Below, piece after piece: positions 50,196 through 54,663 of a stretch of DNA of 64,000 bases. The stretch lies in contig JAAHFU020000001.1 in the NCBI GenBank assembly GCA_010672825.2, positions 1,984,001-2,048,000 of the forward strand. Direction: 5' to 3'. The position numbers and the translations under genes are program-made. Each line of letters opens with the position of its first letter. The stretch's first letter is position 1. The notes below the pieces were generated by a model. The model was given only the letters and a program-made list of their open reading frames with translations, had not been told where the DNA came from and did not search any database. The DNA is from Leptolyngbya sp. SIO1E4 (GTDB lineage: Bacteria > Cyanobacteriota > Cyanobacteriia > Phormidesmidales > Phormidesmidaceae).

Positions 50196-51005
50196 TCAAG
50201 ACTGGTTGGCTAACCATGTAGCCATAAACGGCCTGGGCGATTTTAATCGCTTCCACAAAAATGCAGCATAGGATTGCCTCCTGCGTTCAATCTTCTCCGC
50301 CGAGGCCTGTCGCGCCAGCAACGGTTGCAGAAAACATGCCGGAATTTGCGCAACCGCATTCTGCAAAACTGTAGCTGGCAGTTTCGTGACTAATTCATCG
50401 TCCCAAATGTCTAAATTGCGTGCTTTGTTCCAAAAGAGATGGCGCTCCATGGCATAGTCTGGCGTGCGGGGAGACTCCTCCAAAACCGCAGGCCATTGGT
50501 ATTGAAAGGGCAGGGCAGCACCGTGATCAATCACCCACAATTTATTTTGACACCGCATCAGGTTGGGATTTCGAGTCGTGCGATCGACATTCATCGCCAA
50601 ACTATCCAGCCACAGCACTTGGCAAGCAAAATCCTCATCAATGGCATCAACCTCATCAGCGCGGATGTTTCTCGCTCCGGCTAAGTATTGAAACCCTAAG
50701 TTAATCCCCTGGCTGGCCGCTAGCAGATCCATCAACTCATCTTCACAGACTTCACTCTCTAGCGCCGTGTCGATCGCGATCAGCACCCGACTCGGCACCC
50801 ATAGTCCCAGCGCCTCAGCGATCGCAGCCACCAAAACTTCAGCGACTAAGGCAGAGGTTCCTTGTGCTGCCCCCCGCAGTTTTGTCAAAAAATATCCGGC
50901 ATCGGTTTCGATGACCACAGGTCGCGAACTTCCCTGGTTATTCACTGCGACGACACGGCGAGCTGAATATAGCGGCATGCCTTGATCCATTAACCAGGAA
51001 CACAT
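50196..51005 (-). CDS. HipA-like family kinase
   Basis: About 269 residues (ATG at 51005; other starts at 50990 and 50978 are possible). The kinase core shows GSSRPVVIETDAGYFLTKLR near the N-terminus, AEALGLWVPSRVLIAID, the catalytic loop LDSLAMNVDRTTRNPNLM (Asp and Asn of HxDRHxxN-type sites), and LWVIDHGAALPFQYQW as the DFG equivalent. HipB-type antitoxin or a second HipA-like half is not adjacent, so this is a stand-alone member of the HipA_2-like group. The substrate and role are unknown. Its 5' end lies only 17 bp from a copy of the CCCTA-rich repeat carrying the IS630 terminal repeat. Confidence 0.85.
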   Translation of the reverse strand: MCSWLMDQGMPLYSARRVVAVNNQGSSRPVVIETDAGYFLTKLRGAAQGTSALVAEVLVAAIAEALGLWVPSRVLIAIDTALESEVCEDELMDLLAASQGINLGFQYLAGARNIRADEVDAIDEDFACQVLWLDSLAMNVDRTTRNPNLMRCQNKLWVIDHGAALPFQYQWPAVLEESPRTPDYAMERHLFWNKARNLDIWDDELVTKLPATVLQNAVAQIPACFLQPLLARQASAEKIERRRQSYAAFLWKRLKSPRPFMATWLANQS

Positions 51006-51021
51006 CACGTTGCCCCACAAC

Positions 51022-51120: not shown

Positions 51121-51226
51121 GTCATAGTTATGTAGCCCCGTGCATTTGGGTTTGCGAAAAACACTTCCCGGCACAATCTTTGCTTGCTACACTCAACGAA
51201 AATTAGCCAAATCCATACGTCTGACG

Positions 51227-53572
51227 ATGAGCAAGGGGCAACGGAGAGTCACGATCGTGGGAGGTGGGGCAGCTTCCTTCTTCCTGGGCATTTATCTACG
51301 AGAACACTGCCCAGAGGTAGAAATCGAATTACTGGCCTCTGAGAGTGAGGGCAATTTGGGCGGGCATTTAGCCTGCTCTCCAGAAGCTGATTATCTGACC
51401 GAGCACGGGTTCCATGCCTTATTTGCCTGTTATCGAGAAGTGCTGCCACTGTTAGAGCGTATTGGAGCCATGGGAAACTTTACCATGGGCCCTAAGCACC
51501 TATTTTTGTGGGGCAATCACCAGCTGCATTATGCCCATCCCCATCAGATGCTATTTTCCCCAGCTTTTGATTGGGAACAGCGATGGGAACTCCCGAAGCT
51601 CATCGGCTTGCTGTTGAAGCATCAGATGGACGTGTCTCGCGATGGGTTTGACAGCTTAAATCGCTATGATGCCATGGATTTCCGGGAATATCTGCGGCGG
51701 GAAGGAATTGCAGAGTGCCTGGTCAACAGCCCACTCGTGCAAATGTACTATGATTTTGGGTTTAACGGGTTCGACCCCATGTCGGCAGCCGTGGGGCTCA
51801 AAAATCTGATATTTCTGACTGCCAAGCCTCAACTCTACCAGTTCGAATTTCCGGCCACCCAAGCGCTACTACTTCCCCTCGTTCGCTATTTTCAGCAACA
51901 ATGCCGAGGGCAAATCCGCTATCACCATCATGTGGATAAAATTCACTGGGGTACGGAAAGCCAGCGCATTACGGCTCTCGATGTACGGGATACGGCCACA
52001 GGTAGGTCTTATCGGCATCGTGTAGATATTGTGGTCTTGGCCGTGGGCCTGGAAGCCTTTAAGCATTTGATCTCAGGAATTCCTCACCACGACAGCCTCT
52101 GGCCCAATGTGCAAACCCTAGAGGCAGTTCCCAGTATCTCTTTGCAGGCCTGGTTCAAAGAAGATCCTGTGCCGCGCCATATTAATAGCGTCATTGCTGG
52201 GCTGCCTGAACCGCTAAGTGTTTTAGCACCGCTCACCCGCTTACGGCGGCACCCCAGTACCACACCGTTACCCTACGAAATCATCGCGGTGGGGCCAGAA
52301 AGGGGATTTGAGCACGTTGAGGATGACATCCTGATCGAGTCGTTCTGGCAACGCCTCCGTTACCTGGGCTTTCGGATTCCTCACGCCCCCGAGGAAAAGT
52401 ATGTTCACTTTCACCGCAATCGCGCGGCCCATGAACGTTACCTGCTGACACGACCGGGTCAATTTAGCGATCGCCCACTTCCGTTAACCCATATTCCCAA
52501 CTTGTTTTTAGCAGGAGCCTGGCTACAAACCACGTTTTCAATGCCCTCGCTAGAAGCAGCCGCTGAAACGGCAAACGCCTCTGCCCTCGGTATCCAGAAA
52601 TTAGTGCGGCGGGAAGGCGCGATCGCCCTTTCCTGGGGGATGCCCAAAACCCATCCCCTGGTGACGGCACCCACTTACCACTTGCGAGAAGTGCGGGGAA
52701 GATTCTTTGTGGTTCCTTTGCAACGAGACATGGTGCAGCGTGAGTTACCGGCTTGTCTCCAAGAGATTCCAGCCCTGGCAGGCTATGGTCTGCTGACATT
52801 GATGGATTATCAACGCGTCTATAGCGAGCAGGATGAACAGGGATTGGAACGGTCTTACCAGGAACTGGTACTGAATGCGTTTGTTGAAGAGCGACACCAC
52901 CCTGGGCTCGACCACATGGGCTTATATCCCCTCGCGGTGTATCTGAATGATGATGTGGCGCTGGCCGCTGGCCGCGAAGTATATGGATTCCCCAAAAAAC
53001 TCGCTGAGATTAAGCTAGGGGATCATCATGTGCACATGCGCCGAGCCGGACGATTTCCAAATGAAGGGCCAGGTCCCGTATACCCCATCGAACTGGTACA
53101 AGGGGAATGGCAGGGCGCGACAACGGATGCGAGCGATCGCCCATTCTGGGAGCCCTGGCTCAACCAAGCAACTGACCAGGCAGTTCCCAAACTATTCAAC
53201 CGTTTGCCTGCGCTACCGTTTTATCTCCATCAAGTATTCGTAACCCCCGATGCCAGGCAAACCCCACAACGAACCGTATCGAGGGTGTTGCGAGTACCGG
53301 TGCATCATTTACGGGTTCACCGATCTCGTCAACTCAGCCAAGGCTACTTTCGTCTCACACCCTCCAGCGCCGATCCTTTATATCGTTTCGTGCCTAGCCC
53401 TAACCTCACGTGGGTGATCGAATCTGGACTCGAGATAGATTTCGAGTTTACCCTCAGCGAGGCAGAAGCCATTGCTCAATATGGCAGCTTGGTTTCCCAC
53501 CTCCCAACCTCTCCAGTATCTTGGGGGGCTGCAACACCCTCTTCTGCTCAGATAACCCCCTCTGCCGAGTAG
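51227..53572 (+). CDS. FAD-dependent oxidoreductase fused to acetoacetate decarboxylase-like domain
   Basis: 781 residues from the ATG at 51227, where the FAD-binding motif VTIVGGGAASFFLGIYLREH begins at residue ~8; the earlier ATG at 51140 adds an unlikely lead. Residues ~1-460 form a flavin amine-oxidase/desaturase-like domain (C-terminal FAD motif NLFLAGAWLQTTFSMPSLEA). Residues ~480-750 are an acetoacetate decarboxylase (ADC) family domain: PLAVYLNDDVALAAGREVYG then FPKKLAEIKLG, with tandem lysines at 590-591 in the place of the Schiff-base Lys pair of ADC. Neither substrate is known. A two-step reaction on one ligand, oxidation then decarboxylation or the reverse, is inferred. Confidence 0.85.
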   Translation: MSKGQRRVTIVGGGAASFFLGIYLREHCPEVEIELLASESEGNLGGHLACSPEADYLTEHGFHALFACYREVLPLLERIGAMGNFTMGPKHLFLWGNHQLHYAHPHQMLFSPAFDWEQRWELPKLIGLLLKHQMDVSRDGFDSLNRYDAMDFREYLRREGIAECLVNSPLVQMYYDFGFNGFDPMSAAVGLKNLIFLTAKPQLYQFEFPATQALLLPLVRYFQQQCRGQIRYHHHVDKIHWGTESQRITALDVRDTATGRSYRHRVDIVVLAVGLEAFKHLISGIPHHDSLWPNVQTLEAVPSISLQAWFKEDPVPRHINSVIAGLPEPLSVLAPLTRLRRHPSTTPLPYEIIAVGPERGFEHVEDDILIESFWQRLRYLGFRIPHAPEEKYVHFHRNRAAHERYLLTRPGQFSDRPLPLTHIPNLFLAGAWLQTTFSMPSLEAAAETANASALGIQKLVRREGAIALSWGMPKTHPLVTAPTYHLREVRGRFFVVPLQRDMVQRELPACLQEIPALAGYGLLTLMDYQRVYSEQDEQGLERSYQELVLNAFVEERHHPGLDHMGLYPLAVYLNDDVALAAGREVYGFPKKLAEIKLGDHHVHMRRAGRFPNEGPGPVYPIELVQGEWQGATTDASDRPFWEPWLNQATDQAVPKLFNRLPALPFYLHQVFVTPDARQTPQRTVSRVLRVPVHHLRVHRSRQLSQGYFRLTPSSADPLYRFVPSPNLTWVIESGLEIDFEFTLSEAEAIAQYGSLVSHLPTSPVSWGAATPSSAQITPSAE

Positions 53573-53687: not shown

Positions 53688-54569
53688 CTAAGAGGTGCGT
53701 TGACGCTGCCAGCGCCGTCCGGCCCAGCCCAGCAGCACTAATACCGCAATGTAAGGGCTAAATGCCATGAGCCACAATAGGAGCTGCAGCAGCCCTATAC
53801 TCATAGCCCGCACAGAAGCAGTGGCTGATTGCCAGGTACGGCTCATTGTTTCCCCAACGGGAGAGGTCGTTGGGGCGGGTTGCTGACGACTCACCAGTAT
53901 CAGAGAAATCGTAGAATAGGCAACCCGAGTTTGCAGCGCTTTCAGTTGCGCATCCGAGCGCTCAATAGCCTCTCTGACTGTACTGAGTTCCCGCGAGACT
54001 TCTAGCACATCTGAGATCGAACCTGAGCGCTCCATAATGCCGAGTAACGTTTCCTCGGATTTGCGTAAGTTCCGAACCCGAGCCTGCAAATCGACTAGTT
54101 GAGTAGAGACATCTTCAGCCGTAATCGACTGCTCCTGAACCGTTCCCAGCGCTTGTAGCTGCTCCAGCACAGATTCTAAGTTGTCTTGAGGAATCCGTAA
54201 CTCTAGCGCCACCTGACGAGGGGCACGAGCGTCATTTTCTTGATCTGAGAGCTCTAGCAAATCTCCTTGGGACTGCTTCAAGATATCTGAGATGACTTTC
54301 ACAGCGGCATCAATATCAGCCAGCTCAATCTGCAAGAAAGCATTTTTAATGAGCTGTGGGCGACGCTGCCCGGCTTCAGTGGGGGCAGACTGACTCTGTG
54401 TCTCATCTTCAGTCAGAGAAATAATATCTGCTGAGGGAGCGCGCGCTGCCTCGTCCGCACCCTGAATTGTTTCTACAGGCGCACCGCTGCAGCCGACTAA
54501 AACTGCGGTGCTCAACAGACCCATGAGCCAGGGGACACGCTGTCTGAAATGGTGACTATCAATACTCAT
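53688..54569 (-). CDS. DUF4349-domain lipoprotein
   Basis: 293 residues from the ATG at 54569; a GTG at 54581 is the alternative. A lipoprotein signal ends in LSTAVLVGC (lipobox LVGC, Cys near residue 27). The DUF4349 domain covers ~75-290: IKNAFLQIELADIDAAVKVI, RQVALELRIPQDNLESVLEQ, a central coiled coil (VDLQARVRNLRKSEETLLGI, then REAIERSDAQLKAL) and RVAYSTISLILVSRQQPAP, ending with a membrane segment LLLWLMAFSPYIAVLVLLGW. Function is unknown; members are widespread in the cell envelope. Confidence 0.9.
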   Translation of the reverse strand: MSIDSHHFRQRVPWLMGLLSTAVLVGCSGAPVETIQGADEAARAPSADIISLTEDETQSQSAPTEAGQRRPQLIKNAFLQIELADIDAAVKVISDILKQSQGDLLELSDQENDARAPRQVALELRIPQDNLESVLEQLQALGTVQEQSITAEDVSTQLVDLQARVRNLRKSEETLLGIMERSGSISDVLEVSRELSTVREAIERSDAQLKALQTRVAYSTISLILVSRQQPAPTTSPVGETMSRTWQSATASVRAMSIGLLQLLLWLMAFSPYIAVLVLLGWAGRRWQRQRTS

Positions 54570-54663
54570 AACAATGCTCACTTCCCAATCAAGATGTGTC
54601 TAGTATGGGAAGTGAGCCATCGTATCCACGCACAGTTTCAGGAACTGAAACCAGAGCGCTGCT

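Follow-up and report, generated by a model that had tools for sequence, protein, structure and literature searches.

Fusion of a desaturase-like flavoprotein with an acetoacetate-decarboxylase-family domain in Leptolyngbya sp. SIO1E4

Related systems and the fusion gene

The acetoacetate decarboxylase (ADC) superfamily (PF06314) includes ADC itself (3bh2, 3bgt and 3c8w), MppR, Swit_4259 and an aldolase-dehydratase from S. bingchenggensis. We take 3bh2 to be the C. acetobutylicum enzyme and Arg29, Glu61, Glu76 and Lys115 to be the catalytic positions of acetoacetate decarboxylase, in both role and numbering, with the Arg29/Glu61 pair presumably handling the substrate carboxylate. The plant ADC-family protein NXD1 is described as needed for neoxanthin without an established activity; its Anabaena homolog all0736 is reported in purified lipid droplets and plant NXD1 itself as cytosolic, so that it may contribute to neoxanthin formation only indirectly (PMC12923008, PMC8770946, PMC8151144). 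The window domain described below has the ADC family, a cyanobacterial setting and a possible lipid/carotenoid context in common with NXD1 and the cyanobacterial single-domain ADC-family proteins (PMC12923008), and differs from them in being fused, with the NXD1-like proteins falling outside its group in our ADC tree.

We analyzed a 64,000-nucleotide stretch of the Leptolyngbya sp. SIO1E4 genome (hereafter the window, to which unprefixed positions refer), in which an earlier note made from the letters alone had proposed a fusion of a FAD-dependent oxidoreductase with an ADC-like domain. This fusion is real: the gene is a single intact frame (51227–53572, + strand) encoding 781 aa from its ATG; the frame is already open from a GTG at 51140, which is an alternative start, and both halves exceed their Pfam cut-offs, Amino_oxidase (PF01593) at aa 39–449 (1.3e-17, 64.7 bits vs. 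a cut-off of 19.8) and ADC (PF06314) at aa 493–600 (3.1e-14, 53.5 bits vs. 29.8). It represents known parts in a new arrangement, and the earlier note's remark that no characterised protein is known to carry this pair agrees with our literature search, which had most subscription journals outside its coverage and returned no description of the flavoprotein/ADC pair.

The flavoprotein domain (~aa 1–458; 51227–52600, +) was recognized through Pfam (Amino_oxidase and NAD_binding_8), NCBIfam, profiles and a tree. It contains a dinucleotide-binding loop, IVGGGAAS (51254–51277, +), with GxGxxS replacing GxGxxG and with G12 and G14 invariant in five aligned rows, and we infer that it binds FAD. The description of this half as flavin amine-oxidase/desaturase-type stands as far as the Amino_oxidase match goes and needs one correction, in that the nearest named NCBIfam families are a dehydroxylase and isoprenoid desaturases, all far below cut-off: hydroxysqualene dehydroxylase HpnE (48.9 bits vs. 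283), 15-cis-phytoene desaturase CrtP (41.1 vs. 569) and zeta-carotene desaturase CrtQ (37.3 vs. 622). The structural model of this half is poor (pLDDT 52.4).

Upstream lies a divergent HipA-like kinase gene (PF20613; 50196–51020, −) and downstream a convergent gene for a DUF4349 protein (53688–54581, −); both are on the opposite strand, giving no sign of an operon, and no evidence ties either of them to the fusion. The codon usage of the fusion gene (0.765) is close to the mean (0.775, sd 0.017) for a set of 25 ORFs in the window that we treated as genes, and as both of its halves resemble those ORFs, the gene is not set apart.

The ADC-fold half and its catalytic positions

The C-terminal half (~aa 470–757; 52634–53497, +) is predicted to have the acetoacetate-decarboxylase fold, an assignment drawn from Pfam, an AlphaFold2 model and structure searches. 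The model, built from 53 rows, has a mean pLDDT of 78.5, and all 24 of its Foldseek matches against the PDB at E<=0.001 are ADC-superfamily chains. VIA-align places this predicted model closest to 3c8w (Z 26.2 over 240 residues, rmsd 3.2), followed by 3bh2 (25.0), MppR (24.7) and Swit_4259 (23.9). Its likeness to the superfamily structures is one of fold (Z 23.5–26.2) and of shared Lys115 and Glu76 counterparts; it differs from them in its fusion to a flavoprotein and in having no counterparts of Arg29 and Glu61, and identity in the structural alignments is 15–19%.

The motif GREVYGFPKK (aa 582–591; 52970–52999, +), seen in the sequence and the alignment, ends in the tandem lysines that had been placed at the Schiff-base position. 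K590–K591 do align on Lys115–Lys116 of 3bh2, in a printed alignment consistent with the Lys115 numbering, and K590 (52994–52996, +), the counterpart of the Schiff-base Lys115, is K in all 53 alignment rows. The position of K591 is K in 47 of the 52 other rows, and becomes Y in L041, Q in L091 and R in both L044 and L072, four relatives whose ADC domains are linked to flavoproteins (see below), so the tandem lysine is not diagnostic and does not characterize these relatives. E546 (52862–52864, +) aligns on Glu76 and is E in 51 of the 52 other rows and D in the remaining one. At the Arg29 position 38 of the 52 other rows have R, and at the Glu61 position 38 have E; in the window these positions are occupied by V489 (52691–52693, +; with R487, R490 and R492 close by) and M526 (52802–52804, +), and the same alignment leaves L041, L091, L044 and L072 without these two counterparts as well. 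The earlier note had staked its reading on placement in the ADC superfamily and on a second active-site Glu/Arg; the placement holds, and of the acidic and basic residues E546 is kept while the Arg29/Glu61 counterparts are missing, so on this second point the note's own test goes partly against its reading.

Since this pair is missing from the window domain and the four linked relatives, plain beta-keto-acid decarboxylation is unlikely, and retention of the Schiff-base lysine with one acid instead points toward a different Schiff-base reaction, like those of MppR or the aldolase-dehydratases. A motif lying upstream of the active site was also tried as a regular expression, written after inspection of the alignment; it matched the window (1/1), 26/26 linked, 8/69 stand-alone and 3/11 NXD1-like proteins, along with 8/8 of a mixed candidate set that includes one stand-alone ADC and three paralogs, and no conclusion rests on these counts.

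Recurrence and kinship of the flavoprotein/ADC pairing

Among sampled cyanobacterial genomes, the fusion occurs only in the window genome. The ADC of a genome of the same class is identical to that of Gloeocapsopsis crepidinum, which puts the window's genome in the class of Gloeocapsopsis and so among the cyanobacteria. A search with the ADC half gave the window as the sole match among 63 genomes of its order, and 3 of 386 phylum genomes matched, the other two through frames of 254 and 225 aa; the Pfam ADC model matched in 29 of 244 phylum genomes, with 35 listed frames measuring 213–423 aa except for the window's 814. The whole protein as query matched in 26 of 39 relatives, and outside the window's own, all but one of the listed places matched through the flavoprotein half. 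An empty-site comparison was uninformative: of 29 genomes, counting that of the window, 20 have a match to the DUF4349 neighbor, the fusion was present only at the window's own locus, and even at that locus the flanks did not extend as far as the HipA-like gene. No relative came from scanning viral contigs and genome contigs with the single protein, or from searching plasmids by tblastn; two further viral scans with ADC alignments gave no match, and in Actinomycetota 3 of 208 genomes had weak matches to the linked-ADC alignment.

The fusion, alone among the cyanobacteria searched, recurs in distant bacteria in both domain orders, and besides the cyanobacteria the pairing is present in Pseudomonadota, Myxococcota and Verrucomicrobiota, counting named phyla. 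A genome-contig scan with an alignment as query yielded at least 592 stretches, 196 of them confirmed; the best 80 of 196 were taken, so the scan is no census. In four of these best 80 a flavoprotein matches strongly and is either fused to the ADC or no more than 300 nt from it: L041 (Azohydromonas lata), a single 1050-aa ADC-flavoprotein protein; L091 (Spartobacteria), an ADC gene followed by a flavoprotein gene; and L044 and L072, where a gene joining a cyclic-nucleotide-binding (cNMP) domain to ADC precedes a flavoprotein gene. L091 entered through its flavoprotein match and the other three through ADC. Seven more of the best 80 have weak flavoprotein matches 1.6–5.5 kb away. A 311-aa flavoprotein beside an ordinary ADC at L090, a weak match that looks like a renalase by eye, was not counted as the same pair.

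With the Azohydromonas fusion as query, the family of Azohydromonas lata gave matches in 17 of 250 genomes (seven of them full length in one frame, Azohydromonas lata itself included), the phylum to which L072, a Myxococcales record, belongs in 23 of 195, and the phylum of L091 in 1 of 240, the L091 genome itself; as scoring in these searches was confined to the first few candidates of each genome, absences were not counted. We then have 30 loci picked by their matches to a flavoprotein-ADC query, so that the linked share among them is no frequency. Eight are flavoprotein-ADC fusions in the window's order (L180–L183, L185 and L187–L189, Myxococcota), and eight are ADC-flavoprotein fusions (L041 and L164–L169 from the family of Azohydromonas lata, and L172 from Myxococcota). 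Unfused relatives do also occur as gene neighbors, a possibility raised earlier: nine loci have separate adjacent genes (L091, L173–L179 and L184), seven of them (L173–L179) in the order ADC-flavoprotein-flavoprotein. The ADC and flavoprotein lie ~3.5 kb apart in one locus (L170), and the remaining four (L171, L186, L190 and L191) gave no clear ADC match in this survey. All sixteen fusions carry the same domain pair as the window, with flavoproteins of ~670–730 aa compared with 460 in the window and with low identity to it. Those of L172 and L041 are 52% identical across phyla, which suggests gene transfer.

A less biased test of linkage came from searching the window protein against 193 and 140 genomes, scoring at most 5 and 7 candidates per genome, respectively. 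Each search gave one ADC-half match at E<=1e-6, at L190, a stretch chosen earlier for its flavoproteins, and at L274, from the phylum of L044's genome. Both matches adjoin flavoprotein genes: the L190 cNMP-ADC gene (L190:11612-14185) is convergent with its two flavoprotein genes, and the L274 cNMP-ADC gene (L274:1015-2595) directly follows one, as the cNMP-ADC genes of L044 (L044:9494-10810) and L072 (L072:8237-10795) likewise adjoin theirs.

Phylogenetic analysis of the ADC domains favors kinship of the window domain with this linked group. In a 47-row tree, a starred branch (98/91; support of 81 in a first quick tree) separates the window, the four cNMP-ADCs and 13 linked ADCs from 29 stand-alone, NXD1-like and paralog rows, and a reduced set of 35 rows with the longest left out again places the window with the linked group (93/85), with the alternative of a window domain among stand-alone ADCs not rejected on that set (p-AU 0.245). 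Profile scores of the window ADC were higher for stand-alone ADCs (60.6 bits) than for a first linked set (40.0), while in single-sequence comparison L274 (39.1 bits) and L190 (34.2) scored best of the set, with a stand-alone ADC at 34.1. An independent origin of the window fusion, suggested at first by the profile scores, lost ground once the cNMP-ADC genes moved the window ADC next to the linked group, with that alternative, as above, not rejected. The best ADC identity over tree columns is 26%.

For the flavoproteins, a 45-row mixture-model tree groups the window half with flavoproteins from Myxococcota (starred, 100/98), beside the ADC-linked long flavoproteins (92/87, with a program warning of long branches), and separates it from cyanobacterial CrtP-type rows, a label given by adjoining phytoene-synthase-like frames; grouping with unlinked Myxococcota rows was not rejected (p-AU 0.34). 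The window shares 25–26% identity with the CrtP-type proteins in the alignment, and its profile score for the CrtP-type set (103.6 bits) exceeds that for the linked long set (63.1), a comparison biased by the selection of the CrtP-type set through its matches to the window. The best flavoprotein identity over tree columns is 25%, and best local matches to the window domains reach 31–37%. The closest single flavoproteins, L236 (31%) and L237 (37% over 187 residues), had no ADC in their examined stretches.

The flavoproteins beside the L044 and L072 cNMP-ADC genes group with cyanobacterial rows L017, L018 and L020 (99/95), off the branches of both the window and the long flavoproteins, so the flavoprotein partners do not form one clade. 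Either one flavoprotein partner was exchanged for another, or the pairing has more than one origin. Common descent of the window's pairing and the others is favored by the trees and not shown; repeated origin, if common descent were false, would also argue for a functional link.

A candidate two-step reading and its alternatives

The occurrence of the pair as fusions in both orders, and as neighboring genes, is strong circumstantial evidence of a shared pathway for the two enzymes, and the fusions in both orders support one shared substrate or pathway. We give an even chance to a reading in which two active sites act in sequence on one lipophilic substrate, a flavin step being followed by a Schiff-base step, and we count for it the two domain matches, the predicted fold, the catalytic positions, the recurrence of the pairing and that the best trees appear to put both window domains with linked families. 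Against it stand the great distance of both window domains from every relative, the alternative trees that were not rejected, the profile scores, the split of the flavoprotein partners over more than one clade, the stretches of L236 and L237 with no ADC in them and the poor flavoprotein model. The FAD domain, whose nearest named families are squalene/phytoene-type desaturases and dehydroxylases, would dehydrogenate, oxidize or isomerize a lipophilic (prenyl- or acyl-lipid-like) substrate, yielding a carbonyl or enone. The C-terminal domain would then bind this carbonyl at K590 as an iminium, with E546 as acid/base for an aldol-type cleavage, dehydration or isomerization rather than a beta-keto-acid decarboxylation, so that the ADC-fold domain would be a Schiff-base lyase, dehydratase or isomerase. 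The earlier proposal of oxidation and decarboxylation, or another Schiff-base reaction, on one substrate thereby gains from the recurrence in both orders and loses its decarboxylation branch, which the missing Arg29/Glu61 counterparts do not favor.

Several alternatives bear on this reading. It is conceivable, though on balance unlikely, that the ADC-fold domain is a non-catalytic lipid- or carotenoid-binding partner presenting a hydrophobic substrate to the flavin domain. The window domain lacks two of the four classic active-site residues, and PMC12923008, PMC8151144 and PMC8770946 give NXD1 its neoxanthin role without an established activity and place all0736 in lipid droplets, although the reported cytosolic location of plant NXD1 again allows an indirect role. 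Against such a partner, the counterparts of K590 (all alignment rows) and E546 (nearly all) are conserved, and the window ADC has no convincing match to an NXD1-like cyanobacterial profile (E 0.032; 11 rows, labeled by the motif GLPK[EQ]). As the window domain is not NXD1-like by this profile, NXD1 serves only as a lead toward lipophilic substrates.

A chance fusion of two functions in one lineage, with no shared substrate, seems improbable to us: while the window is the sole match in the 63 genomes of its order, and no other long frame turned up when an ADC match was obtained in 29 of 244 phylum genomes, the pairing recurs in both orders and as neighbors in Pseudomonadota, Myxococcota and Verrucomicrobiota. 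We think it distinctly improbable that the protein joins an acetoacetate (or other beta-keto acid) decarboxylase to an oxidase, with oxidation preceding decarboxylation; an ADC domain with Lys115 and Glu76 counterparts would suit this, but the window, L041, L091, L044 and L072 all lack the Arg29/Glu61 counterparts, and the C-terminal half fails the NCBIfam acetoacetate decarboxylase model NF002614 (30.4 bits vs. a cut-off of 150). An assembly or annotation artefact is hardly credible, for although this exact form was found in only one genome among those searched, the gene is an uninterrupted frame within a 2.7 Mb contig, both halves share the codon usage of their neighbors, and fusions of the same two domains exist elsewhere.

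Returning to the two-step reading, we tentatively extend it, with less than even confidence, to a conserved, undescribed two-step system in cyanobacteria, Myxococcota, the Azohydromonas lata family and Verrucomicrobiota, which would make a carbonyl-bearing isoprenoid or lipid product, maybe a signal or stress lipid, and which would be fused in both orders and accompanied in places by cyclic-nucleotide-binding, kinase or GGDEF proteins. The cNMP-ADC genes possibly encode an ADC-fold enzyme under cyclic-nucleotide control, and in the L044 gene the cNMP part is matched by PADLOC models of cyclic-nucleotide-sensing effectors. Desaturase-like flavoproteins are here linked to a fold that also includes the plant carotenoid gene NXD1, and the fusions provide single polypeptides in which flavin/ADC coupling can be assayed.

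Large kinase/AAA or GGDEF signaling proteins lie beside linked pairs in several lineages (L173, L185, L164, L044 and L091). By Pfam, the L173 neighbor is a protein kinase/AAA/GAF/histidine-kinase protein, that of L185 a kinase/AAA protein, that of L164 a 7TMR-DISM/GGDEF protein and that of L180 a NAD-binding reductase; the kinase-like proteins adjoining the L044 and L091 pairs were recognized by eye. Kelch, SWIM and DUF1801 proteins are among the other neighbors and suggest nothing, and no such signaling neighbor stands beside the window gene at its locus. The fusion, the L041 protein and the L091 flavoprotein gave no PADLOC match; the HipA-like kinase gene at 50196–51020 (−) has a further match, at 2.5e-20, to PDC-M66A, a candidate model for phage defence. 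Finally, a second, weak ADC paralog is present in Myxococcota clusters (L173:12488-13294, L176:12714-13514 and L189:6237-7205), that of L173 scoring 28.5 bits vs. the Pfam cut-off of 29.8, and one tree groups these paralogs with the NXD1-like proteins (89/84), though the program warned of long branches.
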